Below are positions 11,255 to 25,428 of a stretch of 64,000 nucleotides of DNA, piece after piece. The stretch is from Bdellovibrionales bacterium RIFOXYC1_FULL_37_79. GTDB taxonomy: Bacteria; Bdellovibrionota; Bacteriovoracia; Bacteriovoracales; Bacteriovoracaceae. The position numbers and the translations under genes are program-made. The stretch covers positions 1 to 64,000 of the forward strand of contig MEQB01000039.1 of the NCBI GenBank assembly GCA_001770015.1. The letters are read 5' to 3'. The first letter of the stretch is position 1. Every line of letters starts with the position of its first letter. The notes under the pieces were generated by a model, which was not told where the DNA came from, did not search any database, and saw only the letters and a list, made by a program, of their open reading frames with translations.

Positions 11255-12646
11255 TTAATAGTACACGTCTCGTTTTCCGGCGTCTATTTGATGGATGTTT
11301 TGCAAAATATCAGCTTGCTGGATCATCCCGATATCTTTTTTTAGGATATTTTGGATTAATTTATTTCCGTTTATTTTCAACTCATCATCGGCAAAATCAT
11401 TTAAATATTCCTTGAAGGTAAAGATGGCGTTGGGAAGGCAGTGTTGTTTGATAAGACCTGGTTTTGCCAGATCCATAAAGTCTGCTCCCACTCGTCCCAT
11501 TCGGTAGCATCCTGTGCAAAAGGAGGGAAGGTATCCATGATGAACAATATCTTTGGTGACTTCCAGCAGTGAGCGCGTGTCTCCCAGGGAGAATTGCTCA
11601 TCCATTTGTAAGTTAACATCATTAGTGGCATATCCGCCCGGATTGGTTTTACTGCCAGCAGAAATTTGGGAAACTCCTAAAGCGAAGGCCTCTTTTCTCA
11701 TGGAAGAGTTTTCTCTGGTGCTTAAAATAATTCCGGTGTAAGGGACTGCCAAACGAAGGACCGCAATAATTTTTTTAAAATCTCTATCGGCGACTGGATA
11801 GGGAGGATGGTAGGACAGTCTTGATTCATAAGCAGGTTCAAGTCTTGGAACAGAGATAGTGTGCGGACCGATGCCATATTCCTTTTCCAGATGATTGATA
11901 TGTTGTAATAGTGCCAGGACTTCGTATTTCCAGTCATAAAGACCAAATAAAAGTCCGATTCCGACATCTTTGATGCCTGCACGAAAAGCACGATCCATGG
12001 TACTTAGTCGATAATCAAAATTTGCTTTTGGGCCTTTAGTGTGAAGCATTTTATAGGTTGCTTCATGATAGGTTTCTTGGAATAACTGATAAGTACCAAT
12101 TTTGGATTCGTTTAAGCGCCTGAATTCATCGGTTTCCAAGGGAGCAATATTGACGTTGATTCTTTTAATGCTGTGGTTATTACTCCTGATTGAGTAAATG
12201 GTATTGATAGCATCAAGAATGTATTGAAGACCTTGTTTGCCATAGGCCTCTCCCGCCACTAGAAGAATTCTCTTATGGCCTTGGCCTATCAAATTTTTGG
12301 TTTCATTACCAATTTCATGTTGATCAAGTGCCCTGCGGGATAATTTGTGATTATGGTTTCGAAAGGCGCAATAGAGACATTCGTTATTGCATAAATTGGA
12401 GATGTAAAGTGGGGCAAAAAGCACTAATCTTTTTCCATAGATTTCATCTTTTATATAACTGGCGGTTTGGGATATTACATTTAAAAGACCGGGATCGTTG
12501 GTGTGTAGTAATGAAAGTACTTGGTGGTAAGTTAGCCCTTTCATTTTTTTGGCCTGATCGAGTATTTCCAAAATATAGTTGGGAGATGTGTTGATAGTTG
12601 CATTTAATTCACTCATAATTTGGTCGTGATTGATAATATTGTTCAT
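11255..12646 (-). CDS. hydG: [FeFe]-hydrogenase maturation radical SAM enzyme HydG
   Basis: A 463-residue HydG. HydG lyses tyrosine to make the CO and CN- ligands of the H-cluster, delivering an Fe(CO)2CN synthon. The radical-SAM cluster motif CX3CX2C is C86, C90, C93 (CNNECLYC). The C-terminal auxiliary cluster motif CX2CX22C, which separates HydG from ThiH, is complete: CTGC, then 22 residues, then C in QHC. Length is standard. A strong TAGGAGG ribosome-binding site sits 4 bases before the ATG. It is the last maturase gene of the run hydE-aspA-hydF-hydG, 8 bases after hydF. Confidence 0.97.
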   Translation of the reverse strand: MNNIINHDQIMSELNATINTSPNYILEILDQAKKMKGLTYHQVLSLLHTNDPGLLNVISQTASYIKDEIYGKRLVLFAPLYISNLCNNECLYCAFRNHNHKLSRRALDQHEIGNETKNLIGQGHKRILLVAGEAYGKQGLQYILDAINTIYSIRSNNHSIKRINVNIAPLETDEFRRLNESKIGTYQLFQETYHEATYKMLHTKGPKANFDYRLSTMDRAFRAGIKDVGIGLLFGLYDWKYEVLALLQHINHLEKEYGIGPHTISVPRLEPAYESRLSYHPPYPVADRDFKKIIAVLRLAVPYTGIILSTRENSSMRKEAFALGVSQISAGSKTNPGGYATNDVNLQMDEQFSLGDTRSLLEVTKDIVHHGYLPSFCTGCYRMGRVGADFMDLAKPGLIKQHCLPNAIFTFKEYLNDFADDELKINGNKLIQNILKKDIGMIQQADILQNIHQIDAGKRDVYY

Positions 12647-12654
12647 GGTACCTC

Positions 12655-13881
12655 CTATAGGTAATCCTCAAAAGATGGTAGTTTAAGGTGGTTAAAGCAT
12701 TCTAAAGTTCGCTCAAAAATTCCCAGGGTGTAGGCGATGCACATTCCATAATTGGTAACCGGAATATTTTGATCAAAAAATGGTTGAAGCCTGGTATTGA
12801 CTTCCCTTTTGGTCAGCATGCAACCACCACATTGAATTACTAATTGGTATTGGGAAGTATCCTCCGGCAGAAAATCATTTCCTGATTTGATATCAAAGGA
12901 GAGGTTCTTTCCGGTAAAGTTCCTGATCCATCTGGGAATTTTTACCGTGCCAATGTCATCACCGGCCTGATGATGACTACAAGATTCTAAGATTAATATT
13001 TTATCGTGGTCTTTTAAATTGGCAATTTGTCTGGTGCCCTCCACCAGTTTGAAAAAGGGAGTCTTAAGTCTTGCAAAAAGGATTGAAAAGCTGGTCAGCA
13101 TGATATGCCTGGGAACGCTGGCGGCCACTTTTAAAAAAACCTGGCTATCGGTAATCACCAGCTTAGGCATGAGATTTGATTTTTTAAAAAAGGTGTCCAA
13201 CTCTCTTTCTTTTAGCATCATTACCATGCAATCATTATCCAAAGCATCGCGAATAGTTTGCACTTGTGGTTGAATCAGTCTTTTTTTAGGAGCTTCTTGA
13301 TCAATGGGGGTCACTAATAAAATCAGATCTCCTGTTTGCACCAGATCTCCTAGAATGCTGGAATCGAGGTTTGTTGATTGGGAAAATAAATGGGTAATGG
13401 TTTCAATGACCAGGGGTATAGAGTCCCTGGTCATGGTGGAGAGAGAAATAACCGGGACCTGATAAGTGTTGATTAAAGTTTCAAGCTCTGTCTGGGAAGG
13501 TGAATATAAATCGCTTTTATTCCAGACAATGAACCATGGAATCTTTCTTTTAGTAAATTCGGTAATGATGATTTTATGATCCTTGGTTATTCCCGACTGA
13601 TCGCAGATTAAAATGGACAGATCACAAGAATTAAGAGCATGCATGGTGGATTTAATTCTTTTTTCTCCCAAAACACCTTGATCATCTATACCTGCGGTAT
13701 CAATGATCACCACCGGACCAATCGGCGGAATTTCCATAAACCGTTTCACAGGGTCGGTAGTAGTTCCTGGAATCGAAGAAACGATGGAAGTAATTTGTTG
13801 TCCTATTAAATTGATAAATGAACTTTTCCCAACGTTTCTCAGTCCAAATATCCCAATATGATATCGCATGGATTTTAACAT
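12655..13881 (-). CDS. hydF: [FeFe]-hydrogenase maturation GTPase HydF
   Basis: A 408-residue HydF, the scaffold on which the [2Fe] subcluster is completed before transfer to apo-HydA. The N-terminal GTPase domain shows the P-loop GLRNVGKSS (13-21), DTAGIDD and WNKSD. A middle dimerisation domain follows. The C-terminal cluster domain has the CxH...CxxC pattern: SCSHH, then IQCGGC about 50 residues later. The start has GGAGGAGG upstream and overlaps the aspA stop by 7 bases, indicating coupled translation. Confidence 0.97.
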   Translation of the reverse strand: MLKSMRYHIGIFGLRNVGKSSFINLIGQQITSIVSSIPGTTTDPVKRFMEIPPIGPVVIIDTAGIDDQGVLGEKRIKSTMHALNSCDLSILICDQSGITKDHKIIITEFTKRKIPWFIVWNKSDLYSPSQTELETLINTYQVPVISLSTMTRDSIPLVIETITHLFSQSTNLDSSILGDLVQTGDLILLVTPIDQEAPKKRLIQPQVQTIRDALDNDCMVMMLKERELDTFFKKSNLMPKLVITDSQVFLKVAASVPRHIMLTSFSILFARLKTPFFKLVEGTRQIANLKDHDKILILESCSHHQAGDDIGTVKIPRWIRNFTGKNLSFDIKSGNDFLPEDTSQYQLVIQCGGCMLTKREVNTRLQPFFDQNIPVTNYGMCIAYTLGIFERTLECFNHLKLPSFEDYL

Positions 13882-15320
13882 TTTTCCTCCTCCAGATCCT
13901 TTAATCTAAATCCAAGACTGGTAAGTTTTGAGGGAGTGAGTAGGGCGGTAATAACTTGATCGGGTAGTAGTTTTAAAATGGCATTGGCCTTCAATACATC
14001 TGTCTGGTTTTCTTTCATAAAATTCATTAGTTTCGCAGCTTTTGCATGACCGATGTGAGGGATTAAAGCGGTTACGATCACGGGAGATTTCAGGTAATCA
14101 TGATCATCATCGGTTTTTATAATTTTATTTAAGAGGTTATTACTTAAAGAAAGATTGGCGCTAATAAGTAAGTTAAGTGATTCCAAAAGAGCATGGCCTA
14201 TAATTGGTAGATAAGCATTTAGATCCAAGACACCAAGCCCTGCCATATTGCTGATCAGTTGATCATTGCTTCGAACTTTGTGGCAAATGCTGATGATATA
14301 TTCACATATCACTGGATTATATTTACCTGGCATGATGGAACTGCCTTCTTGCACAGGGGAAAGGCGAAATGCTTGGTGTTTGAATAGATCGCTAGATATG
14401 AGCCGCAAGTCGTTGGCAAGTTTTTCCAGATTGACGGTGTGAGCTTTTAAAATGGCATGTACTTCGACTATTGTATCTAGATTAGAGGTGGTGTCACACA
14501 TATTTTCACTTCTATGCAAGGGGAGATTGGTAAGTCCTTTTAATATTTCAAAAATGCTTACAATAATAAATCGGGGGACAGTGAGTCCCGTACCGATGGC
14601 ACTTCCTCCCAGGTTAATCTGTTTGATACGCTCTTCACATTTGGATACTCGCCACCAATCTCTAGAAAGTGCATCTGAATAATTGGAAAAAAATCTTCCC
14701 CAGGTCGATGGAACCGCCTCTTGCATTTGGGTGTAGGCAATGCGAATACAATTATTGAAGGATTTTTCAAGCATTTCAATTTTTTGCTTTACCTTATCAA
14801 TTTGGGCACTCAGTTCAGCTAATTTCCACATAGTGGCAAGTTTTAAAGCTGAAGGAATAACATCGTTGGTGGACTGAAAGATATTGGCATGATCCAGAGG
14901 GTGAATGAGGGAATAATTACCAAGCGGCTGCTTCAGTATTTCCAGAGCGCGATTGGCAATTATTTCATTGATATTCATATTGATACTGGTGCCTGCTCCA
15001 CCAGTTATTGCTCCAACCACGAAATGATCAAACCATTTACCTTCATAAATTTCTTGAGCGCTTTGAATCAAGGCAGTGATTTCTTTGGCACTTATATTTT
15101 TAAAATGTAAAACAGTGGAGGGGTATTTAATCGTGCTTTCTTTATTAAATTCCATCCAGGCCAGGTAATAGACTTTTTTGATAAGGCCTATGGCCTTGTA
15201 CCAATCCAGGGAAAATTTATCATTGTTGGGAAAATTATTTACCGCTCTTTGGGAATGAATGCCAAAGTAAGCATCAGACGGAATTTCCAGGGTTCCCAAA
15301 CTATCTTGTTCTAATCTCAT
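13875..15320 (-). CDS. aspA: Aspartate ammonia-lyase (aspartase/fumarase superfamily)
   Basis: A 481-residue enzyme that splits aspartate to fumarate and ammonia. It begins with the aspartase-type sequence LGTLEIPSDAYFGIHSQRA. It carries FQSTNDVIPSA, the TQMQEAVPSTWG region and the catalytic loop GSSIMPGKYNP, whose first serine is the superfamily base. The usual GKVNP is GKYNP here. The closely related class II fumarases are the main alternative. The gene overlaps hydE by 4 bases (ATGA) and hydF by 7, so it is translationally embedded in the maturation operon. Ammonia release could feed the nitrogen of the azadithiolate bridge or, with asnB further down, amide formation; this link is inference. 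Confidence 0.9.
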   Translation of the reverse strand: MRLEQDSLGTLEIPSDAYFGIHSQRAVNNFPNNDKFSLDWYKAIGLIKKVYYLAWMEFNKESTIKYPSTVLHFKNISAKEITALIQSAQEIYEGKWFDHFVVGAITGGAGTSINMNINEIIANRALEILKQPLGNYSLIHPLDHANIFQSTNDVIPSALKLATMWKLAELSAQIDKVKQKIEMLEKSFNNCIRIAYTQMQEAVPSTWGRFFSNYSDALSRDWWRVSKCEERIKQINLGGSAIGTGLTVPRFIIVSIFEILKGLTNLPLHRSENMCDTTSNLDTIVEVHAILKAHTVNLEKLANDLRLISSDLFKHQAFRLSPVQEGSSIMPGKYNPVICEYIISICHKVRSNDQLISNMAGLGVLDLNAYLPIIGHALLESLNLLISANLSLSNNLLNKIIKTDDDHDYLKSPVIVTALIPHIGHAKAAKLMNFMKENQTDVLKANAILKLLPDQVITALLTPSKLTSLGFRLKDLEEEKC

Positions 15321-16327
15321 ATTTGATTATTCCTTTTTAAATAATGGAGTGAATCACCCCAATCGTTGATACAAAAAAAGAAATTAGGGGTATTTAAAGC
15401 CATCGAGTTTTTACCAGGATAGAGATCATATTGCGATTTAATCATATCCGGGGTGAGGTTAGTCATGAAGACGTTGGCCCCGGCGCTAAGGGCAGCGCTC
15501 CTTCCATGGGGGGCCATAACCTCAAGGGCCGTGGCAGAGGCAATATTAATATCACAGCATAGGATGCGAAGCAGGGAGATCGTGTTAAGCGTAAGGTCCA
15601 ATCTTTCTGGTTTGGAAAATAAAATGGATGGATGATTCCATAGCGGAGTATCTGGATGTTCGATGTATGGCCCCAGCCCGATCATATCAAGGTCCAGGGA
15701 TTTTAAAAATAAAATGTCCTTGGCAAGGTCTTTTATGGTTTGAAAGGGAAAACCAATTAAAATTCCACTGCCCACCTGGTAATTTAGTTCTTTTAAATGT
15801 TTAAGGGTTTCGAGTCTTTGTTCAAAAGCATGCAATTGATCACATGGATGAATTTTATGATAGAGTCCAATATTGCTGGTTTCAATTCTAAGTAAATACC
15901 GGTGTGCACCGCTTTGTTTCCATTCTTGCAGGGTTTGTCTGGTTTGTTCGCCACAAGAGAGGGTGACATGCATGTTTTGTCTGGTACGAATTGCAATTTC
16001 TTTTAAAATACTAGCTATATAATGGGTAAAAGGGGAGGACTGAATTTCACCTGATTGTAAAACCAGTGAACGGAAACCGTTTTCATAGGCGTTGAGCGCC
16101 AGATCCACCACCAATTCTTTGGACAATTGATAGCGCAAAAGATCGGTGTTTTTTCTGATTCCACAGTAATAGCAATTTTTATGACAAATATTACTCACTT
16201 CTATCAAGGCACGGTTATAAATATTTTTGCCTACCGATTGTCTTTTTATGGCGTCAGCCTTTTGATGAAGGAGATGTTGCTGGCTGCCTTTGGACAGTAA
16301 TAAGTTTTCCAAGTCATGAAGTTGCAT
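15317..16327 (-). CDS. hydE: [FeFe]-hydrogenase maturation radical SAM enzyme HydE
   Basis: A 336-residue HydE of the BioB-like radical SAM family. The CX3CX2C cluster motif is C48, C52, C55 (CHKNCYYC), followed by GIRKNTDLLRY and the SGE motif LQSGE typical of HydE. HydE acts on the organometallic synthon made by HydG to build the [2Fe] precursor. GGAGG lies 5 bases before the ATG. The gap to rex upstream is 61 bases without a terminator, so hydE is probably read from the hydC promoter as well as from any local one. Confidence 0.96.
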   Translation of the reverse strand: MQLHDLENLLLSKGSQQHLLHQKADAIKRQSVGKNIYNRALIEVSNICHKNCYYCGIRKNTDLLRYQLSKELVVDLALNAYENGFRSLVLQSGEIQSSPFTHYIASILKEIAIRTRQNMHVTLSCGEQTRQTLQEWKQSGAHRYLLRIETSNIGLYHKIHPCDQLHAFEQRLETLKHLKELNYQVGSGILIGFPFQTIKDLAKDILFLKSLDLDMIGLGPYIEHPDTPLWNHPSILFSKPERLDLTLNTISLLRILCCDINIASATALEVMAPHGRSAALSAGANVFMTNLTPDMIKSQYDLYPGKNSMALNTPNFFFCINDWGDSLHYLKRNNQI

Positions 16328-16388: not shown

Positions 16389-17126
16389 TTAACGATCTCG
16401 ATTCTGGATTGCAAAGTAAGCAGCTTTCTCGATGGTGAGCATGATATCAATGTTTTCCACAAAGATATTGTCGGGGACTTTAAGAGGTACATGGGCAAAG
16501 TTGATAAATGCTGAAACGCCCAAGGGAATAAGCATATCAACGATCTCTTGCGCCGACGAAACTGGAACAGCCAAGATGACAATGGATATGTTTTCTTTTT
16601 TAAAAATTTCTTCAAAGTTTGATATATGATAGACATGGCAACCACAAATGACCCGATCAGTTTTTTCCAGACTGGTATCAAACGCAGCGACAATTGGTAA
16701 GTCCTGCATTTTCCCGGAAAAATAGGATAAAATGGCCCGTCCGAGATTTCCTACCCCAAAAATAGCAATTTTTTGGATCTTGGTCTTTCCAAGTATCGCC
16801 GAAATTTGTTCGATGATTTGGGAGACTTTGTAGCCTTTTCTGGGGTTGCCGATGTGTTCTAAAACCATGAGATCTCTTCTGACTTGAGCCGAAGACAGGC
16901 ATGCCAGTTGGGCAATTTCATGGGAATAAATATTCTCACGATTTTGAATTAGCTCATAGGTGAGTAGTCTTCTATAAAGACTGAGTCGTTCTATGGTCTT
17001 ATCTGGAATTTTTTCGTTCAAAGTTTTCACTCCACTTTGAAAGTTGTTAAACCTTGGTTTTACTATATCAAAACTCTTTAAAGCTTTAAAGTGAATAATT
17101 GCACTGTTTTTAAAGCTATACCTCAT
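16389..17126 (-). CDS. rex: Redox-sensing transcriptional repressor Rex
   Basis: A 245-residue Rex. Residues 38-100 form the winged helix (IPDKTIERLSLYRRLL and LSSAQVRRDL). Residues 118-240 form a Rossmann domain with the NADH-binding GVGNLGRA (124-131), and the C-terminal swapped helix ends EKAAYFAIQNR. Rex leaves its operator when NADH rises. The first 37 residues are an extension not usual in Rex, but AAGGGA sits 7 bases before this ATG, so I keep the long start. A matching TGTGA-N6-TCACA site overlaps the hydC promoter at the head of this run, making Rex the likely controller of the hydrogenase genes and its own. Confidence 0.95.
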   Translation of the reverse strand: MRYSFKNSAIIHFKALKSFDIVKPRFNNFQSGVKTLNEKIPDKTIERLSLYRRLLTYELIQNRENIYSHEIAQLACLSSAQVRRDLMVLEHIGNPRKGYKVSQIIEQISAILGKTKIQKIAIFGVGNLGRAILSYFSGKMQDLPIVAAFDTSLEKTDRVICGCHVYHISNFEEIFKKENISIVILAVPVSSAQEIVDMLIPLGVSAFINFAHVPLKVPDNIFVENIDIMLTIEKAAYFAIQNRDR

Positions 17127-17153
17127 TTTCTAGTCCCTTTTTACCAGCGAGAT

Positions 17154-17174
17154 GGCCGCCACAAAATGGCGGCC
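17154..17174 (-). other. GC-rich intercistronic hairpin before rex
   Basis: GGCCGCCA and TGGCGGCC form a perfect 8-bp stem around a 5-base loop in the 57-base gap between a receiver gene and rex. Stem composition is almost all G/C in an AT-rich genome. No U-tract follows in the direction of transcription, so intrinsic termination is unlikely; mRNA processing or 3'-end protection of the upstream message fits better. Confidence 0.65.
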
Positions 17175-17183
17175 GGTCATCTT

Positions 17184-17597
17184 TTAGTTTCCATCGACAT
17201 TAATTTCATCTTTTTTGAGTGCTAAAAGCCGTTTCACTTCTTTTAGCAGTTTTATTTTCTCCACAGGCTTTTCCAAAAAAGCATCTACCGGTAAAAAATT
17301 TCCATCTTTTTTGGGATCACATTTCATGTTTAACTTTTGATTGACTGAAGTAAGCATGAGGATCGGAACAAATTTTAACCCAGGATCTTTTCTGAGCTTG
17401 TAGGCGGTATGAAAGCCCTCGGTGTTGTCATCCATCATCACATCCAATAAAATCAGATCTGGAATTTCCGACTTCGCCTTGGCATACCCTTCATTTCCAT
17501 TCATCGCTACCGTCACGTTGTGTTTTTCGGTCGATAAAATGATTTTACATGTTTCTAAGACGTCTCGATCATCATCAATGCATAAAATCTTTGCCAT
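17184..17597 (-). CDS. Single-domain response regulator (CheY-like)
   Basis: A 137-residue stand-alone receiver. The acidic pocket IDDD lies at residues 7-10, the phospho-aspartate is in LILLDVMMDD, T/S switching is in MLTSV, and the lysine is in FLEKPVEK. There is no output domain. AAGGAGG stands before the ATG. It is one of three receiver proteins lined up behind the H-cluster-fused kinase and probably receives phosphate from it or from the neighbouring receiver-kinase. It lies directly upstream of the hairpin and rex. Confidence 0.92.
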   Translation of the reverse strand: MAKILCIDDDRDVLETCKIILSTEKHNVTVAMNGNEGYAKAKSEIPDLILLDVMMDDNTEGFHTAYKLRKDPGLKFVPILMLTSVNQKLNMKCDPKKDGNFLPVDAFLEKPVEKIKLLKEVKRLLALKKDEINVDGN

Positions 17598-17606
17598 AAG
17601 TCCTCC

Positions 17607-18773
17607 TTAGGTAACTATCTTTGGAGAGATAGTATTGTTTAAATATTTTTTTAATGTTACACAAAAGGTACTGCCAATTCCTTTTTGACTAGTGACGCTG
17701 ACGGTACCCTCATAGAGTGCTGCAATTTTTTTTACCGTGGATAAACCAAGTCCGCTTCCTTGGATGTTCATGGTATCCGTATTTTTAATTCTAACAAAAT
17801 CTTTAAAGAGCTTGTCTTGTTCATAGGGTTCTAGTCCTATGCCAGAGTCCTTGATTTGAATTTCCACTTGAGTGGGGGTGTCATTGACGGTGATATCCAC
17901 GGTGCCATTTGTCCGGTTATATTTGATGGCATTATTAATAAGATTATTTAATATAATTTCCAGTTCAGATTGATCGCCATCCATAGATAGTTCATTGGGG
18001 GAAACGAGGTTTAGGGTGATGCCATTTAGTTTTGCCTCGTACGTGTTTTGTTCAATAAGCAAGTTAATAATCGCTATTAAATTGATCGGTTCAATCTTAC
18101 GAGTTTTTTGTCCTGACTCAATCCTGGTCATATCCAGTAAGTCAAAAATCAGTTTACGCATACCTTCTAACCTGAGCAGACTGCGCTCAATTGCCATTTG
18201 GTAATTTTCACTATCAGGGGTGATACTGCCTTCGTGGAGAAGTTTTAAATATCCATCGATCGCGTTGATCGGGGATTTTAATTCATGGGATAAAACTGAA
18301 ATAAATTCAAATCTGATTTTTCTTTTTTCCTCTTCAAAACTTTTGGCCCTTTTGGCAAGGACAAAACGAGTAGCCGCTTTTCTTACGGAGTTTCGCAGTT
18401 CCTCGGGAGTGAATGGCTTTGCCAAAAAATCGTATGCTCCCAGTTTGGTGGCCTGTACGGCAGTTTCAAAAGTCGCATAGGCAGTCATCATGATGACAAG
18501 GGTTTCTTTGCTTTGTTCATTTAATTCTTGCAAGATATCAAGACCTGAACCGTCCGGGAGTTTATAGTCCAGTAAGATTAAATCATATTTATGATTCACG
18601 ATCTCTGTTTTATATTCTGAATATGAGTGAACGGCTCTGGATGAAAATCCAACTATGATGTTTAGATCATCAATAAAAACCTGGGTGGAGGATAACGCAC
18701 GAGAAGCACCCATGCACATGCCTTCTTCATCATCAATAATCAGTATGTTTAAAACGTCATTAACATTATTCAT
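17607..18773 (-). CDS. Receiver-histidine kinase (REC-HisKA-HATPase)
   Basis: A soluble kinase of about 388 residues with the receiver placed first. Counting two residues more for a possible TTG start at 18779, the receiver spans 10-130 with IIDDEE and the phospho-aspartate D71 (LLDYKLPDGSG). HisKA has H165 (VLSHELKSPINA). The HATPase_c domain has NLINNAIKYN, DSGIGL and GSGLGLS. There is no membrane or PAS input, so its input is most likely phosphorylation of its own receiver, that is, an intermediate in a relay from the H-cluster kinase. The start overlaps the previous receiver gene by 8 bases. Confidence 0.9.
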   Translation of the reverse strand: MNNVNDVLNILIIDDEEGMCMGASRALSSTQVFIDDLNIIVGFSSRAVHSYSEYKTEIVNHKYDLILLDYKLPDGSGLDILQELNEQSKETLVIMMTAYATFETAVQATKLGAYDFLAKPFTPEELRNSVRKAATRFVLAKRAKSFEEEKRKIRFEFISVLSHELKSPINAIDGYLKLLHEGSITPDSENYQMAIERSLLRLEGMRKLIFDLLDMTRIESGQKTRKIEPINLIAIINLLIEQNTYEAKLNGITLNLVSPNELSMDGDQSELEIILNNLINNAIKYNRTNGTVDITVNDTPTQVEIQIKDSGIGLEPYEQDKLFKDFVRIKNTDTMNIQGSGLGLSTVKKIAALYEGTVSVTSQKGIGSTFCVTLKKYLNNTISPKIVT

Positions 18774-19164
18774 TGGCAAGTAATCTCCTTATTTCTCTTA
18801 CCAGTTGCTCGGCCCTGACTGGCTTGGTGAATATGGTGTCTGCTTTAATCCATTTTTTTTCGTTTTCTGTGATGGTGTCAAATTCCAAACCTGTTTGGGC
18901 AGTGACTCCGGTGACCATGATAACTGGAGTTTTAGGCCAGCTGGATTTGATTTGGTAACTTAATACAAAGCCATCATCTTTTTCTTGCATCATCAAATCC
19001 ACGATTGCCAGATCAATCTGCATTTCTTCCAATATTTTTCTGGCCGGTTTGATACTGTGGGCGGTAAACACATTAAATCCTTCTTTCTCCAATTCAAGTT
19101 TTTTTTGAAATAAATAATCAACATCATCATCCACTAATAAAATATTTTTTTTAATCTTGGACAT
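18766..19164 (-). CDS. Single-domain response regulator (CheY-like)
   Basis: A 132-residue receiver starting at the ATG with AAAGGAGAG upstream; a longer in-frame start would reach 15 codons further into the kinase gene and is disfavoured. It has LLVDDDVDYL, the phospho-aspartate in LAIVDLMMQEKDDG, the threonine in VMVTGV and the lysine in FTKPVRAE. There is no output domain. It overlaps the sensor kinase upstream by 14 bases and the receiver-kinase downstream by 8, so its stoichiometry is probably tied to theirs. Confidence 0.92.
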   Translation of the reverse strand: MSKIKKNILLVDDDVDYLFQKKLELEKEGFNVFTAHSIKPARKILEEMQIDLAIVDLMMQEKDDGFVLSYQIKSSWPKTPVIMVTGVTAQTGLEFDTITENEKKWIKADTIFTKPVRAEQLVREIRRLLANE

Positions 19165-21181
19165 ATTCTTCTCTCCTTTTAATGACTTGTTCATATCTGG
19201 GAAGTTCAATAATCACTTCGGTACCGGTTTCTCCCTCTGCACTATTGGTATTGGAATGGACGGTAACGTTGCCCCGATGCATTTTGACTATACCGTAGCA
19301 TACGGGAAGACCAAGCCCCGTTCCTTTACCAATTTGCTTGGTGGTAAAGAAGGGATCAAATATGCGGGGCTTTATTTTTTCGGGGATGCCTGGACCGTTA
19401 TCCTTGACTTTAATAATCAGAGTTGATTCATTTCCATCAATGGTGATGGTAATCTCACCTTTTTGATCATCCAGGGCATCGATGGCATTATTGATAAGAT
19501 TGATTAAGACTTGAGAAATTTGGTCTTTGTCCACTTCGGCGCAGGAGTCGCAATATAAAGTGATGATTTTAATTTTTATGTGATCATTGACGCCAATCGA
19601 ATCGGCACAATGATTGGTCAGATCATAAATGTTAACTTTTTCATAAAGCACTTTATTTTGTCTGGAGAAATTTAAAAGGCCTGAAACAATCTTTTTGCAG
19701 CGATTTGACTGGGACACAATCATCTCCAGGTCGTGGGCGAGATCGGGATCTTGTCCGTGTTGTTCTAAGAGTATGTGCGCATACATGAGCACTACCCCCA
19801 GGGGATTGTTCACTTCATGGGCAATCCCGGCAGCCAATTGGCCCATACTTGCCAATTTTTCACGATGATTCAAGATTTGTTTAACCTTTTTAAGTTCGTC
19901 ATAAGAATATTCCAAATCAGAAATGGTGGTTTTGAGTCGCTCGATAGTGTAAGGAAGACACATTTCATTTTCAGCAACTCCCAGAATAATGGCAACGGCA
20001 TGTTCCTTACAGGTTGAATAACCACAAGCTCCACAGTTAAGTTCATCATCGCTATTTTTCTTACCCAGTTTGAACAAGGTGTTTTTGATCAAGAGTTCGC
20101 TTGGCTTTACCACTCTTTGATTATCTTCGGTAAAAGTGGCACCAAGATCAATACCTTGGGTTTTAATAATATTTTGAGTCCACACCAATTCATCGAAAGT
20201 TTTCATGCGACTTTGGAGATAGCGGCTCATCTCGTTTCTTTTTTTGTATTGGGGAAGTTTTTGAGCAAAGCCTGGTCCCATAATACAACCTTCACAAGAA
20301 AGGGTCTCCAGCAGTTTCGGGCGTAATTCCTCTTTTTTAAAACTACGCAAGGCCTGTACAAAATTGATCCGCCCATCGGCTCTGACAATATCTCCCGTAA
20401 GCAAGTCCTCTTTGAGATGAGCGGTTTGTAATAGCCCGCCACTAATGGCAAATAATCCGCCCGTGTTGGAGTGGGGAGGATCAAACTCACGATCTTTGGA
20501 AAAGCGCCAGTCTATGTTGTTTTTGATGAAATATTCCTTAATTTCCTTAAAGGTGACCGAGAGGTCAATGTCATTATTGCTTATGCGCGCTTCATGCTTT
20601 TTCGCAATACAAGGACCAATAAAGACCACGGATGAATGCTCATCATAAAAAAGTTTGACAATTTTGGCCATGGCAATCATGGGGGACACGATAGGAGCGA
20701 GATGGGGGATTAGTTCCACTTGATATTTTTCAATATAGGAAACTACGGCGGGACAGGTGGTGGCAATCCATGATTTTTTATCGTCTTTTAAGAGTAATTC
20801 CTTATAGGCACCGGCCACTACATCTGCACCAAAAGCCACTTCACAAACATGGTCAAAACCAAGTTCAAACAAAGCACCGATAAAGCGTGTGTAAGGAGCA
20901 TAAGTGAATTCGGCGGGAAAACTGGGAGCGATGATGGCTATCTTTTTTTTAGCTGATCTTAAAATGGTATCTAATTTATCTATTTCATTTAGAATAGTTT
21001 TGGCTTCACGACTGCACACTTTTATACAGTTGCCGCAATGAATACATTTTTCTTGAATAATTTGGGCCTGTCCTTCTGAAATACCAATGGCCCGCGCCGG
21101 ACATTCCCTGACACAAGTATAACATATTTTACATTTTTCTTTGATGGTGGAGATGATGGGTTGTGATAAATATGTACTCAT
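19151..21181 (-). CDS. Sensor kinase with [FeFe]-hydrogenase-like H-cluster domain
   Basis: A 676-residue fusion. Two 4Fe-4S ferredoxin motifs (C17-C20-C23-C27 and C46-C49-C52-C56) lead into an [FeFe]-hydrogenase large-subunit domain (about 75-345). The four H-cluster ligand positions are kept: TTCP (C143), GPC (C191) and CEGC (C296, C299). A further 4Fe-4S domain (CGACGYSTC, C383-C386-C391, with C408) is followed by a coiled linker and a kinase core with H455 in GIAHEVNNPL and an HATPase_c domain. Residues around the cluster differ from catalytic enzymes in the way known for sensory HydS proteins. It probably reads hydrogen or redox state and phosphorylates the adjacent receivers. It is soluble, with no transmembrane segment. 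Confidence 0.93.
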   Translation of the reverse strand: MSTYLSQPIISTIKEKCKICYTCVRECPARAIGISEGQAQIIQEKCIHCGNCIKVCSREAKTILNEIDKLDTILRSAKKKIAIIAPSFPAEFTYAPYTRFIGALFELGFDHVCEVAFGADVVAGAYKELLLKDDKKSWIATTCPAVVSYIEKYQVELIPHLAPIVSPMIAMAKIVKLFYDEHSSVVFIGPCIAKKHEARISNNDIDLSVTFKEIKEYFIKNNIDWRFSKDREFDPPHSNTGGLFAISGGLLQTAHLKEDLLTGDIVRADGRINFVQALRSFKKEELRPKLLETLSCEGCIMGPGFAQKLPQYKKRNEMSRYLQSRMKTFDELVWTQNIIKTQGIDLGATFTEDNQRVVKPSELLIKNTLFKLGKKNSDDELNCGACGYSTCKEHAVAIILGVAENEMCLPYTIERLKTTISDLEYSYDELKKVKQILNHREKLASMGQLAAGIAHEVNNPLGVVLMYAHILLEQHGQDPDLAHDLEMIVSQSNRCKKIVSGLLNFSRQNKVLYEKVNIYDLTNHCADSIGVNDHIKIKIITLYCDSCAEVDKDQISQVLINLINNAIDALDDQKGEITITIDGNESTLIIKVKDNGPGIPEKIKPRIFDPFFTTKQIGKGTGLGLPVCYGIVKMHRGNVTVHSNTNSAEGETGTEVIIELPRYEQVIKRREEYVQD

Positions 21182-21188
21182 ATATTAT

Positions 21189-22904
21189 TTAGTACCCGGT
21201 TCTTGGTTTATATTTGGTATGTAACAGTTCATGTGATTTTTGACTAAGTGGATGCATCAGAAATTCTTCATAAAGCTTGACCACATCCTTATTATGATGA
21301 GATTTTCTGATTTTTTCGTTCTTATCGATTTGATACAAGGCTTTCATACGGGCAACAATTCTATCTTTATCAAGGCCAAACGGTTGTCCGCCACCCGCAA
21401 TGCACCCTCCGGGACAAGTCATGACTTCAATAAAATGATATTGTTTGATACCACGTTTAATATCATCTAATACTAATCGAGCATTTGAGAGACCACTGAT
21501 CACCACTGTTTTTAGGGTGATGCCGGCAATGGTTACTGTCAGTTCTTTTATTCCTTCCAAGTCTCGATATTCGTGAATTTCGTGAACCTGAGAATCATCA
21601 TTGGTTATCAGAAAGGCGGCAGTTCTTAGGGCTGCTTCGGCCACTCCTCCGGTTACCCCAAAAAGTTTGGCCGCAGAACTGTGCTCTCCTAGAGGATCAT
21701 CAGCATCTTCTGGTTTTAATTTGGCTAAATTAATATTGAACATATCTATCATTTTTGCCAGTTCCCTGGTGGTTAAAACTGCATCAATATCGGCCAGCCC
21801 TCCGGTAATCATTTCTTCCCGACCAGCTTCAAACTTTTTGGCCGTGCAAGGCATGATGCTGACTGAATAAACATCGCGAGGGTTTATATTTTTTTTGAAG
21901 GCCCAGTAATTTTTGATTAAAGCCCCCATCATTTGTTGTGGGCTTTTACAGGAAGATAAGTTATTTAAAAATTCAGGATAGAAATGTTCGACAAATTTGA
22001 TCCAGCCAGGTGAACAACTGGTCATCAATGGCAGGTTCTCACCCTTTTTAACCCGATCCACCAGTTCTGAAGCCTCTTCCATGATGGTCACGTCAGCACT
22101 AAAGGATGTTTCGAAAACAAACTGGAAACCCATTTTTCGAAGGGCGGCGGTCATTTGTCCGTTTACGTCACTTCCTGGTTTAAATCCGAATAATTCACCC
22201 AAAGTAACCGAAATGGCTGGAGCATGTTGAACGACCACCACTTTATTCTTGTCAGCTAAAGCGGCCAGCACATCCTTGATATTGTTTTTTTCTACGATGG
22301 CACCGGTGGGGCACACCATGGCACATTGACCACAATTAATGCAGTTAGAAGTATTGAGTCCACCATCAAAAGCCGTGGTGACCTTGGTTTGGCTTCCTCT
22401 TTTAATAAAAGAAATGGCGGATACTGTTTGTCTTTCTTCACAAACCCGGACACATCTTCCACATAATATACATTTTGATGGATCCCTTATTAGAGAAGGA
22501 CTGGATTTATCGATTTCTTTTTCAATTAATTGTTTTGAAAAATTACGATTTCGCACTCCCAGCTCGGCAGATAATTTTTGTAATTCACAAGTATTGTTTT
22601 TATCGCAGTAAAGACAGTCATCGGGATGATTGGAAAGTAGTAATTCCAAGATTGATTTTCTGGCAGCAATCACCCGGTTGGAATGAGTGAAGATTTTCAT
22701 ACCCTCGGTGATTTGGGTGGAACAGCTGGTAACTAGATTTTTATTTCCTGCAATTTCCACTACACACATCCGGCAAGAACCGCTGGGAAATAAATCTTCC
22801 AGATAGCAAAGCGTTGGAATATTTATATTAGCACTTTTGCAGGCATCTAAGATGGAAATGCCTGAGGGCATATTGACTGATTGGTGGTTAATTTCGATTT
22901 TCAT
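21189..22904 (-). CDS. hydA: [FeFe] hydrogenase catalytic subunit HydA (NADH-linked type)
   Basis: A 571-residue catalytic subunit. In order it has a 2Fe-2S domain (C33, C44, C47, C61), a His-Cys3 4Fe-4S site (H93, C97, C100, C106), two 4Fe-4S clusters (C145-C148-C151-C155; C188-C191-C194-C198) and the H-cluster domain with TSCSPGW (295-301), MPCTAKKFE (351-359) and EVMTCPGGCIAGGGQP (493-508). The C-terminus after residue 515 is the usual small-subunit-like tail. With HydB and HydC it forms a cytoplasmic NAD-dependent, possibly electron-bifurcating, hydrogenase. The L1 motif reads TSCSP where monomeric enzymes have TSCCP. It lies 18 bases after hydB. Confidence 0.97.
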   Translation of the reverse strand: MKIEINHQSVNMPSGISILDACKSANINIPTLCYLEDLFPSGSCRMCVVEIAGNKNLVTSCSTQITEGMKIFTHSNRVIAARKSILELLLSNHPDDCLYCDKNNTCELQKLSAELGVRNRNFSKQLIEKEIDKSSPSLIRDPSKCILCGRCVRVCEERQTVSAISFIKRGSQTKVTTAFDGGLNTSNCINCGQCAMVCPTGAIVEKNNIKDVLAALADKNKVVVVQHAPAISVTLGELFGFKPGSDVNGQMTAALRKMGFQFVFETSFSADVTIMEEASELVDRVKKGENLPLMTSCSPGWIKFVEHFYPEFLNNLSSCKSPQQMMGALIKNYWAFKKNINPRDVYSVSIMPCTAKKFEAGREEMITGGLADIDAVLTTRELAKMIDMFNINLAKLKPEDADDPLGEHSSAAKLFGVTGGVAEAALRTAAFLITNDDSQVHEIHEYRDLEGIKELTVTIAGITLKTVVISGLSNARLVLDDIKRGIKQYHFIEVMTCPGGCIAGGGQPFGLDKDRIVARMKALYQIDKNEKIRKSHHNKDVVKLYEEFLMHPLSQKSHELLHTKYKPRTGY

Positions 22905-22922: not shown

Positions 22923-24896
22923 TTAATTTTTAATGATGGCTCCAAATTTACAAATTTTAAGACACTGGCCACATTTGATACATTTTTCATTATTGATATA
23001 ATGAGGGGCCTTGGGAGAACCTTTAATAGCACCACTTGGACATTTTTTGGCGCACAAGGTGCAACCTTTGCATTTGTCTTCAATAATTTCAAAGTTAATC
23101 AGTTCGCTACACACACCACTTGGACATCGTCTATCAAAAATATGTGCTTCATATTCATGTCTAAAATATTTAAGAGTACTTAATACGGGGTTAGGGGCGG
23201 ACTGGCCCAGTCCACATAAGCTGGTTTCTTTTATAGTATTACTTAATTCTTCAAGCTGTAAAATTCCTTTGAATCTATCTAGCGCATCGTTGCCCTTTTC
23301 ACTGATTCTTCCGCGGGTAATTTTTTCTAAAATATTTTGCATTTGCTTGGTGCCTTCTCGGCACGGAATGCATTTGCCGCAACTTTCTCGTTGAATAAAG
23401 TCCATGAAAAATTTTGCCACATCCACCATGCAATTATCTTCATCCATGACCACTAATCCACCGGAACCCATCATGGCACCAATCGTTTTAAGGGAATCAT
23501 AATCAATTTCAATATTTAAATTTTCGTTGGTGACGCAGCCACCGGAAGGTCCACCAATTTGCACGGCCTTAAATAATTTATCATTTTTAGGTCCGCCTCC
23601 GATATCAAAAATAATCTCTCGCATGGTGATGCCCATGGGAACTTCCACTAACCCGGTGTTTTTAATTTTGCCTGAAAGCGCAAACACCTTGGTTCCTTTA
23701 GAATTGTTATTACCCATGCTATTAAACCACTCACATCCCATTAATATAATGGCAGAAATGTTGGCGAGGGTTTCTACATTATTGATGACGGATGGTTTAC
23801 CATGCAAACCACTGACGGCCGGAAATGGGGGACGAGGGCGTGGCATCCCCCTTTTGCCTTCAATACTATGAATAAGGGCTGTTTCTTCTCCGCATACAAA
23901 AGCTCCCGCACCTTTTTTAATAATAATATCCAGATCAAATCCTGAATCGAAAATATTGCTTCCTAAAATTTTCCATGCATATAAATCGCTAATGGCCTGT
24001 TCCAAATGAGCTATGGCAAGGGGGTATTCGGCCCTTATATAAATATAAGCTTTGGTGGCCTGGATAGCATAAGCAGCGATGATGAGTCCTTCTAACAATT
24101 TGTGAGGGTCGCCTTCTACCACTGCGCGATCCATGAATGCACCCGGATCCCCCTCGTCGGCATTGCAAATAAAGTATTTTTGATCGCTGGGGGTGTTTAA
24201 GGCAAATTTCCATTTTTTGCCGGTTAAAAATCCGCCGCCGCCCCGCCCTTTCAAACCGCTTTTTTCTATGATGGTGCAAACTTCCAGAGGAGTTAGTTCC
24301 TTGAGGGTTTTGGCAAGTGCCAGATAACCATTGTGGGCAACATATTGACCAATGGAGAGGGGATTGATAATGCCACATTGGTTTAAAACAATTCTTTTTT
24401 GTTTTTTAAAAAAGGGATAATCTTCCATAAAGGGTACATTTTCCCAGACCTTCAAATCCTTAGATCGATATTGAAAAAGTGCCTGACATAAAACTTTTTC
24501 ATCCTCTTGTAAGAGGGCCTTAACCATGGATTCAACTTTATCGGAGGTGACATTTCCAAAGCTGATACGGTTTTTACCCGGAAGAAAAATATCCAGAATA
24601 GGTTCCGCAAAACACAACCCGATGCAACCCACTTTAATAATTTCATAGTCCACATTAATGTTTTTTAAAACACCTATGAGTGCCTTTTCGGTATGGAGGG
24701 CACCTGCACCAAGACCGCAAGTTCCTGCGCCTATAAAAAAATAGGGTTTATCAACCGTATCGTTTTTTAATGTTTCAATTTTTTTAGCAATATCTTCCGA
24801 TGTGGGATTGGAAACTTCCGGGAGTAGGCAACTGTTAAAATATTCCAAGTTGCTACCAATCAGATAATTTTCAATTGAGGGTAACCCGTTATTCAT
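22923..24896 (-). CDS. hydB: NADH-linked hydrogenase subunit HydB (NuoF-like)
   Basis: A 657-residue flavoprotein subunit. Residues 50-130 form a thioredoxin-like 2Fe-2S domain with GAGTCG (C60) and GCIGLC (C91, C95). The NuoF core follows, with the NADH/FMN loop GLKGRGGGGFLTGKKW and CNADEGDPGAF. A 4Fe-4S site reads ESCGKCIPCREG. The C-terminus adds a two-cluster ferredoxin domain (CKGCTLCAKKC and CIKCGQCLKIC). It oxidises or reduces NAD(H) and passes electrons to HydA. This domain set is that of the bifurcating HydABC group, but bifurcation itself is inference. It overlaps hydC by 8 bases. Confidence 0.96.
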   Translation of the reverse strand: MNNGLPSIENYLIGSNLEYFNSCLLPEVSNPTSEDIAKKIETLKNDTVDKPYFFIGAGTCGLGAGALHTEKALIGVLKNINVDYEIIKVGCIGLCFAEPILDIFLPGKNRISFGNVTSDKVESMVKALLQEDEKVLCQALFQYRSKDLKVWENVPFMEDYPFFKKQKRIVLNQCGIINPLSIGQYVAHNGYLALAKTLKELTPLEVCTIIEKSGLKGRGGGGFLTGKKWKFALNTPSDQKYFICNADEGDPGAFMDRAVVEGDPHKLLEGLIIAAYAIQATKAYIYIRAEYPLAIAHLEQAISDLYAWKILGSNIFDSGFDLDIIIKKGAGAFVCGEETALIHSIEGKRGMPRPRPPFPAVSGLHGKPSVINNVETLANISAIILMGCEWFNSMGNNNSKGTKVFALSGKIKNTGLVEVPMGITMREIIFDIGGGPKNDKLFKAVQIGGPSGGCVTNENLNIEIDYDSLKTIGAMMGSGGLVVMDEDNCMVDVAKFFMDFIQRESCGKCIPCREGTKQMQNILEKITRGRISEKGNDALDRFKGILQLEELSNTIKETSLCGLGQSAPNPVLSTLKYFRHEYEAHIFDRRCPSGVCSELINFEIIEDKCKGCTLCAKKCPSGAIKGSPKAPHYINNEKCIKCGQCLKICKFGAIIKN

Positions 24897-25377
24897 TAGA
24901 GGCCTCCTTATCCCTAAAGTCTTGAATGATATGTTTAATTTTTTCGGTAGTCAGTTTGGCAAAAAATTCCCCGTTAATGCTCATAACCGGAGCCAAACCA
25001 CAGGCCCCAATACATGCCACAACTTCCAGGGAGAAAAGTCCATCAGGAGTGGTCTCTCCGGTATTAATTTTTAAGTCGCTGATCAAAGCCGCTAAAATCG
25101 TGCTTGATCCTTCCACATGACAGGCGGTACCTCTACAAATTTGAATTTGGTATTTTCCTGGAGGGTGAAATTTAAATTGATTATAAAAAGTGGCCACTCC
25201 GTAAACTTTACTTAAGGGTAATTTTAAAAAGTCACCAATTTCCATCATGGCGTTTTTTGAAAGAAATTTTTCCGCTTCCTGCACGCATTGTAAAATCGGG
25301 ATAAGGTCACCACGATTGGCCTTGGGAAATTTCTTAAGTAAACTGGTCACCGTGATATTTGTATTTTGCTTGGACAT
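24889..25377 (-). CDS. hydC: NADH-linked hydrogenase subunit HydC (NuoE-like)
   Basis: A 162-residue thioredoxin-like 2Fe-2S subunit. The ligands are C81, C86, C122 and C126 in CRGTAC and CIGACGLAP. An N-terminal helical part resembles NuoE (ILQCVQEAEKFLS, VYGVATFYNQF). The start is the ATG with GGAG 6 bases upstream; longer in-frame starts would run through the promoter and Rex operator and are rejected. It is the first gene of the hydrogenase run, 36 bases from the Rex palindrome. It shuttles electrons between HydB clusters in the HydABC complex. Confidence 0.95.
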   Translation of the reverse strand: MSKQNTNITVTSLLKKFPKANRGDLIPILQCVQEAEKFLSKNAMMEIGDFLKLPLSKVYGVATFYNQFKFHPPGKYQIQICRGTACHVEGSSTILAALISDLKINTGETTPDGLFSLEVVACIGACGLAPVMSINGEFFAKLTTEKIKHIIQDFRDKEASNE

Positions 25378-25412: not shown

Positions 25413-25428
25413 TGTGAATAATATCACA
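25413..25428. promoter_or_regulatory. Rex operator (TGTGA-N6-TCACA)
   Basis: A perfect 16-bp palindrome with 5-bp arms and the 6-base centre ATAATA, matching the core of known Rex sites (TTGTGA-N6-TCACAA). On the minus strand its centre is the -10 hexamer TATTAT of the hydC promoter, so bound Rex would block RNA polymerase. The rex gene lies in the same gene run, which supports the assignment. Confidence 0.8.

Follow-up and report, generated by a model that had tools for sequence, protein, structure and literature searches.

A sensory [FeFe]-hydrogenase-like histidine kinase encoded with a receiver-kinase and lone receivers beside hydABC: a conserved gene cassette from a Bdellovibrionales genome

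Background

Three groups in HydDB, C1 (histidine kinase-linked), C2 (chemotactic) and C3 (phosphatase-linked), are entered there as putative sensors whose role is undetermined (PMC5037454). A 2024 study described, under the name BfuT sub-type V, a HydS protein that is fused to a histidine kinase and encoded downstream of hydA; it came from Hydrogenedentota, Caldithrix abyssi and some Bacteroidota and was assigned to group C3, to which proteins of this kind were placed nearest (PMC11406978). Here we analyze such a sensor kinase (HydS-HK) together with the genes that follow it, a lone receiver (RR1), a receiver-kinase (RR-HK) and a second lone receiver (RR3), in a stretch of 64,000 nucleotides (the window; positions 1 to 64,000 of contig MEQB01000039.1) from the 4.36 Mb genome of Bdellovibrionales bacterium RIFOXYC1_FULL_37_79. 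The window sensor has the H-domain and histidine kinase domain of BfuT sub-type V, its gene adjoins hydA of a group A3 trimer, and several of the related loci described below come from the same groups as those reported (Hydrogenedentota, Calditrichota, Perlabentimonas) (PMC11406978). The first-pass annotation of the window had named the system its best candidate for an undescribed one, which is too strong for the sensor because it had been published as BfuT sub-type V. The receiver and receiver-kinase part is undescribed in the text searched: the main text of PMC11406978 makes no mention of a receiver, a response regulator or a second kinase, and no description of these partners was found in the open-licence papers searched. 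What is new beyond BfuT sub-type V is the set of relay partners, the breadth of 22 phyla, and a linker that is quantized in heptads.

Two biochemically characterized sensors are informative for comparison. TmHydS, of group C (M2f), resembles the window sensor in its two N-terminal 4Fe-4S clusters, its H-cluster ligands, the replacement of M353 by Gly, the loss of the proton-relay Cys and a C-terminal Cx2Cx4Cx16C motif, but it carries a PAS domain and is not fused to a kinase (PMC10055695). TamHydS, of group D (M2e), shares with it the C-terminal 4Fe-4S motif without a PAS domain, a gene adjoining a bifurcating hydrogenase and a Leu at the M497 position (PMC8163306, PMC13104023), but it also has no fused kinase, and the M353 position is Ser/Thr in group D where HydS-HK has Gly. 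The window sensor combines the cluster motifs and catalytic-residue changes of group C with the absence of a PAS domain after the C-terminal cluster; this absence it shares with group D, whose Ser/Thr at the M353 position it lacks. By these motifs HydS-HK is probably a PAS-less group-C-like sensory [FeFe]-hydrogenase.

In the HoxBC-HoxJ-HoxA and HupUV-HupT-HupR systems, an H2 sensor likewise signals through a histidine kinase to an NtrC-type receiver, but the sensor is a [NiFe] protein in separate subunits and the receiver is joined to sigma-54 and DNA-binding domains instead of to a kinase. These systems belong to [NiFe] group 2b, which is histidine kinase-linked (PMC5037454). The LvrA-LvrB-LvrC pathway is the biochemically worked precedent for a Rec-controlled kinase: a kinase activates a second kinase built of receiver (REC), dimerization and histidine phosphotransfer (DHp) and catalytic ATP-binding (CA) domains, which phosphorylates a further receiver protein, and a heptad signaling helix is present as in the window proteins, although sensor and output are different and there is no hydrogenase part (PMC13269768).

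Results

The sensor kinase and the three genes behind it, which the first-pass annotation had described as overlapping or abutting genes for a lone receiver, a receiver-kinase and a lone receiver, are all present on the minus strand of the window:

19151..21181, minus strand: sensor kinase HydS-HK, 676 amino acids (Pfam, 61-member alignment, motifs, AlphaFold2 model, Foldseek)
18766..19164, minus strand: lone receiver RR1, 132 amino acids, phospho-Asp D56 (PF00072; most likely start ATG 19164)
17607..18773, minus strand: receiver-kinase RR-HK, 388 amino acids (Pfam; start ATG 18773)
17184..17597, minus strand: lone receiver RR3, 137 amino acids, D52 (PF00072)

HydS-HK and RR1 overlap by 14 nt, RR1 and RR-HK overlap by 8 nt, and RR-HK and RR3 are separated by 9 bp. 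Relatives of these genes were collected from GTDB species genomes using the N-terminal 420 residues of the sensor as the only query, so that neighboring genes could not bias the scan, and the best 80 of 582 loci were examined; after addition of loci from the phylum of the window genome, 79 kinase-fused sensors were counted. An RR-HK is encoded within the next genes in 61 of the 68 kinase-fused sensors with more than 1.8 kb of downstream sequence, and 54 of these 68 have a lone receiver as well. HydA lies directly upstream of the sensor in 54 of the 65 loci with room upstream. The related loci fall into 22 named phyla (assigned from record titles), 18 of which contain the set of hydA, sensor, receiver and RR-HK, and the exact order of sensor, RR1, RR-HK and RR3-type receiver, for which a search had been proposed, occurs in 11 loci including the window. 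Gene junctions are short or overlapping across the relatives (medians 15, 14 and 4 bp). Because it recurs in dozens of genomes that were found without using the neighbors as query, the arrangement is far beyond chance. Strong RR-HK orthologues, moreover, are found only in [FeFe]-hydrogenase genomes (59 relatives).

Within its own phylum the sensor is patchy, with a HydS-like protein in four of the 39 genomes first searched, three of them kinase-fused. On the sensor tree, the window sequence stands beside a Melainabacteria sequence and one from a different family of its phylum, with moderate support, while the other two genomes of the same family are placed elsewhere. Such a placement fits horizontal transfer.

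Our analysis bears out the initial description of HydS-HK as one polypeptide joining ferredoxin clusters, an H-cluster domain with four cysteines, an extra 4Fe-4S domain and a full kinase. The Pfam domains are Fer4 (13-60), Fe_hyd_lg_C (78-303, E 2e-44), FeS PF04060 (381-410), HisKA (446-508) and HATPase_c (551-662), which correspond to two 4Fe-4S ferredoxin clusters, the H-cluster domain, a C-terminal [4Fe-4S] motif and a complete histidine kinase with phospho-His H455. In an alignment of 61 homologues, the H-cluster ligands C143, C191, C296 and C299, the eight ferredoxin cysteines, the cysteines of the C-terminal motif, H455 and the kinase N and G boxes are all invariant. The C-terminal motif is exactly Cx2Cx4Cx16C (C383, C386, C391, C408). 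The last two H-cluster cysteines form a Cx2C motif (SCEGC) in HydS-HK as against Cx3C (CPGGC) in the neighboring HydA. A reading in which the fourth H-cluster cysteine is missing, with Ser at the CpI C499 position by C-terminal register, was rejected: CxGC is invariant in the 61 homologues and there is simply one residue fewer between the cysteines. The position of the proton-relay Cys (CpI C299) is Thr (L1 motif TTCPA) and that of M353 is Gly (L2 motif FIGPC, with GPC invariant in the homologues), so that, at the level of sequence, residues of fast catalysis are altered like those of characterized sensory enzymes (PMC8163306, PMC10055695). No PAS domain is found in the window HydS-HK or in 60 of the 61 kinase-fused homologues. 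Profile comparison assigns the kinase to the AtoS/ZraS type, and in the AlphaFold2 model (mean predicted local distance difference test score 88.9) the front part matches [FeFe]-hydrogenases and the back part the ZraS kinase by Foldseek.

In 75 proteins, the phospho-His (H455) lies either 33, 40, 47 or 54 residues after the last Fe-S ligand (C408), and at no other distance. This distance changed at least six times on the tree, each time by a multiple of seven; were lengths unconstrained, the chance of six such changes in succession would be close to (1/7)^6, or some 1 in 100,000. Elsewhere in these proteins the lengths between motifs are not so restricted: in four such intervals, which vary freely, only 2 of 92 departures from the mode are multiples of seven. 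The AlphaFold2 model places a helix at 409-433, starting directly after C408, followed by a weakly predicted hinge and the DHp helix. Since the linker occurs only in heptad lengths, a coiled coil, as judged from the sequences and the predicted model, must join cluster and kinase and couple the C-terminal cluster domain mechanically to the kinase, with no PAS relay in between. Such a coupling fits, by analogy, the behavior of TamHydS, in which H2 alters the secondary structure without reducing the C-terminal cluster (PMC13104023).

RR-HK consists of an NtrC/AtoC-type receiver (D69) that leads directly into HisKA (H163) and HATPase domains, where an NtrB/NtrC-type system would have a sigma-54 AAA+ and DNA-binding domain. 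The best NCBIfam match of the receiver is AtoC, its nearest solved structures are receivers of the NtrC family, AtoC/LuxO/NtrC-type receivers are closest overall, and on the receiver tree it groups with the sigma-54 response regulators of related loci. Its REC-DHp-CA order, intact phospho-Asp and phospho-His, and regular signaling helix are those of a Rec-controlled kinase of the LvrB type. Across 69 relatives the kinase His is invariant, and the other catalytic residues are invariant or nearly so. The spacing from the receiver Lys to the kinase His is 44 residues in 47 relatives without a PAS domain; a second class carries a PAS domain and has a spacing of about 170. AtoS/ZraS kinases usually pair with AtoC/ZraR-type regulators. 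Because the RR-HK receiver is of the type that matches the AtoS/ZraS-type sensor kinase, the second kinase seems to have taken the place of the usual NtrC-type DNA-binding output, and the domain types favor a wiring from HydS-HK to RR-HK. Two loci, L084 (Chloroflexota) and L095 (Firmicutes), have no RR-HK; the gene that overlaps the sensor kinase gene there encodes a sigma-54 response regulator.

The window receivers all retain the acidic triad, the phospho-Asp and the Lys, and in RR1 the acidic residues, Asp and Lys are kept in 64-66 of 66 relatives. RR1 and RR3 belong to different receiver subfamilies on the receiver tree, each conserved with its position, and an LPVDxFxEKP motif of RR3 is found in 26 related loci including the window. 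No histidine phosphotransfer (Hpt) protein, as a classical His-Asp-His-Asp phosphorelay would use, was found among the cassette proteins scanned, the genome itself not having been searched for one. The parts of the cassette, their conservation, the intact catalytic residues and the heptad-quantized linker are thus read from the sequences themselves.

The surrounding genes encode the hydrogenase, Rex and the maturation proteins. The minus-strand transcription order is hydC, hydB, hydA, HydS-HK, RR1, RR-HK, RR3, rex, hydE, an aspartate ammonia-lyase-like gene, hydF and hydG, with the following features in addition to the four listed above:

25413..25428, minus strand: palindrome TGTGA-N6-TCACA before hydC, candidate Rex-type operator
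24889..25377, minus strand: hydC, NuoE-like (PF01257; probable start ATG 25377)
22923..24896, minus strand: hydB, NuoF-like, flavin mononucleotide (FMN) (PF01512, PF10589)
21189..22904, minus strand: hydA, catalytic subunit of the NADH-dependent/bifurcating-type [FeFe]-hydrogenase (NF040763, 831 bits, cut-off 765)
17153..17175, minus strand: GC-rich hairpin directly after RR3, a possible break before rex
16389..17021, minus strand: rex, redox-sensing repressor (NF003995, 187 bits, cut-off 126; probable TTG start 17021)
15317..16327, minus strand: hydE, H-cluster maturase (TIGR03956, 279.6 bits, cut-off 254.6)
13875..15320, minus strand: aspartate ammonia-lyase-like gene (PF00206)
12655..13881, minus strand: hydF, H-cluster maturation GTPase (TIGR03918, 497 bits)
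11255..12646, minus strand: hydG, H-cluster maturase (TIGR03955, 497 bits)

Comparison with homologues places the start of rex probably at TTG 17021 (or GTG 17030) and not at 17126, and rex is consequently not tightly coupled to RR3. The probable rex start lies about 160 bp beyond RR3, with the GC-rich hairpin in between, so rex may belong with the maturation genes to a second transcription unit. The aspartate ammonia-lyase-like gene (13875-15320) within the hydE-hydF-hydG cluster scores under the aspA equivalog cut-off, and such a gene lies likewise inside the maturation clusters of several distant phyla.

The palindrome before hydC is perfect, with one match in the window against 0.02 expected by chance, and it overlaps an extended -10 promoter-like site (25446-25418). 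Since rex is a neighboring gene, we regard the palindrome as a candidate Rex operator. A family-wide occurrence of Rex operators before rex or hydC was considered and rejected; a site with up to two mismatches is found in only 3 of 54 upstream regions, though more often than in shuffled sequences (0.4%). Rex is the most frequent DNA-binding neighbor, encoded nearby in 29 of 78 related loci. NtrC-type regulators lie near the cassette in L018, L081, L082, L084 and L095, and LuxR-type regulators in L017 and L026, with similar regulators in L043, L059 and L060; sigma-54 or LuxR-type regulators are thus confined to a minority of relatives, in two of them directly behind the sensor kinase. The first-pass statement that no partner binds DNA therefore applies locally, apart from Rex, and does not extend to these relatives.

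Kinase-less relatives of the sensor are also found. In ten Bacteroidota loci (L041, L047, L048, L052, L054, L055, L056, L087, L091, L094) the hydABC operon comes with two HydS genes, one encoding a kinase-less HydS that adjoins a gene of about 394 codons (a SpoIIE-type phosphatase where tested, L041) and the other encoding HydS-HK behind hydA. Two bfuT genes have been noted in three such species (PMC11406978). The kinase-less copies fall among kinase-fused ones on the sensor tree, which suggests duplication with a change of output. In the kinase-less HydS of L041 (3312-5165) and L094 an H-cluster cysteine is lost in motif L3 (YHSGC, YNKGC), so a complete H-cluster may be lacking from some 'H2 sensors'. 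Genome G012, of the same family as the window genome, encodes a different HydS behind hydABC (L016, 14895-17794), of 567 amino acids, without a kinase and with the L3 motif CPGGC; it is followed by a 399-residue gene product resembling the phosphatase partner, so the output type is swapped within one family.

Discussion

We propose a mechanism for the cassette in which H2 as the ligand, the order of phosphotransfer and the output are inferred. HydS-HK would read H2, or an H2-coupled redox state, at the H-cluster, and the signal would travel as an altered state of a parallel coiled coil, which would extend from C408 straight into the kinase dimerization domain. The H455 kinase would then phosphorylate the receiver of RR-HK at D69, which would switch the second kinase (H163) as in Rec-controlled kinases such as LvrB. 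RR-HK would in turn phosphorylate or dephosphorylate the lone receivers; RR1 would belong to the sensor kinase and act as its partner or as a phosphate sink, whereas RR3 would be associated with hydABC and might deliver the output. HydABC activity or expression would be adjusted as a result, in parallel to Rex reading NADH/NAD+. We consider this mechanism as a whole, from HydS-HK through RR-HK and the lone receivers to HydABC, moderately likely, and the cassette probably reports the amount of H2 or of reducing power to the cell. Of the multi-step relay suggested in the first-pass annotation, the conserved unit of a sensor kinase and a receiver-controlled kinase beside hydABC has held up, with a wiring to RR-HK that the domain types favor.

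Several points weigh against the proposed relay. Because the C-terminal cluster of TamHydS is not reduced by H2 (PMC13104023), the signal, by analogy, would have to be conformational. Eight loci have a sensor kinase and an RR-HK without an adjacent lone receiver. In another genome of the same family (G039), RR-HK and RR3 persist although neither HydS nor RR1 was found, and RR-HK therefore cannot depend on HydS everywhere. Finally, distance-matrix co-divergence of the sensor DHp domain is similar with RR1 (0.39) and with the RR-HK receiver (0.43), which singles out no kinase-receiver pair and does not separate a linear from a branched relay.

The similar co-divergence speaks for a branched system. 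In such a system HydS-HK itself would phosphorylate all three of RR1, RR3 and RR-HK; RR1 would serve as a phosphate sink or adaptor, and RR-HK would be mainly a phosphatase or an integrator of a second signal. RR1 directly adjoins the sensor, the two are absent together in G039, and the extra PAS domain in many RR-HKs suggests a second input. RR-HK is nevertheless the steadier partner of the sensor (61 of 68 loci, against 54 of 68 with a lone receiver in addition), and its receiver is of the type that fits the sensor kinase; we regard the branched arrangement as unlikely. The output could also be transcriptional in the classical way, by a DNA-binding regulator whose gene lies elsewhere, such as a sigma-54 activator, the cassette then being an H2-responsive two-component system with a scattered regulator. 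There are NtrC-type or LuxR-type regulators near the cassette in some relatives and at least nine strong sigma-54 activator domains in the window genome, yet a DNA-binding response regulator beside the cassette is missing from most of the 78 loci, and no sigma-54 promoter above chance lies before hydC in the window. The few sigma-54 regulator neighborhoods inspected in the genome gave no convincing orphan partner, and the one receiver-bearing sigma-54 regulator inspected (L110) adjoins its own kinase. A scattered regulator is in our view somewhat unlikely, though less so than the branched scheme.

The identity of the signal is a separate question. The sensor might read redox state, as ferredoxin-level electrons arriving through the N-terminal clusters, rather than H2, with the H-cluster as a redox gauge. 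The N-terminal ferredoxin domain is intact, and the changed residues of fast catalysis (Thr for the proton-relay Cys, Gly at the M353 position) are as in slow sensory enzymes (PMC8163306, PMC10055695). All four H-cluster ligands, on the other hand, are invariant in the 61 homologues, the maturases are encoded alongside, and the related TamHydS has a high affinity for H2 (PMC8163306), and we regard a sensor of redox state rather than H2 as unlikely.

As to the output of the proposed relay, RR3-type receivers often stand directly before hydC, in several lineages, and G039 encodes at 447-2720 of locus L106 (G039:C2) a 757-residue fusion protein in which a receiver and a GcvH-like (glycine-cleavage-H-like) domain are joined to the HydC [2Fe-2S] subunit. 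Downstream of this fusion follow HydB with a GltD-like extension, HydA, an RR3-type receiver, RR-HK and the maturases. Such a locus suggests a site of action near the hydrogenase for RR-HK and RR3, with HydS-HK and RR1 together as one of the possible inputs. No further fusion of this kind was found in 241 sampled genomes of the phylum, a sample without a positive control. The position of RR3-type receivers before hydC and the G039 fusion hint that HydABC itself could be the end point of the relay, phosphorylated RR3 docking on the hydrogenase and tuning its activity or bifurcation bias allosterically rather than through DNA; we put this forward as a doubtful, speculative proposal. In six loci from Ignavibacteriota and Bacteroidota (L061, L066, L067, L068, L071, L073), the cassette is directly followed by an RR3-type receiver and a second hydCBA set with a shorter HydB, and two hydrogenases may share one relay there.

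In the cassette, one chain holds sensor, cluster, signaling helix and kinase, the linker changes by whole heptads only, and the likely partners are encoded in the same gene cluster, in about 20 phyla of anaerobes. If a second kinase has taken over from an NtrC-type DNA-binding output, two-component signaling would have been rewired here in an instructive way, and docking of RR3 on HydABC, if true, would give a phosphorelay a redox enzyme as its allosteric target instead of DNA. The cassette would connect H2 levels to the control of electron-bifurcating hydrogenases, which are central to fermentation and syntrophy.

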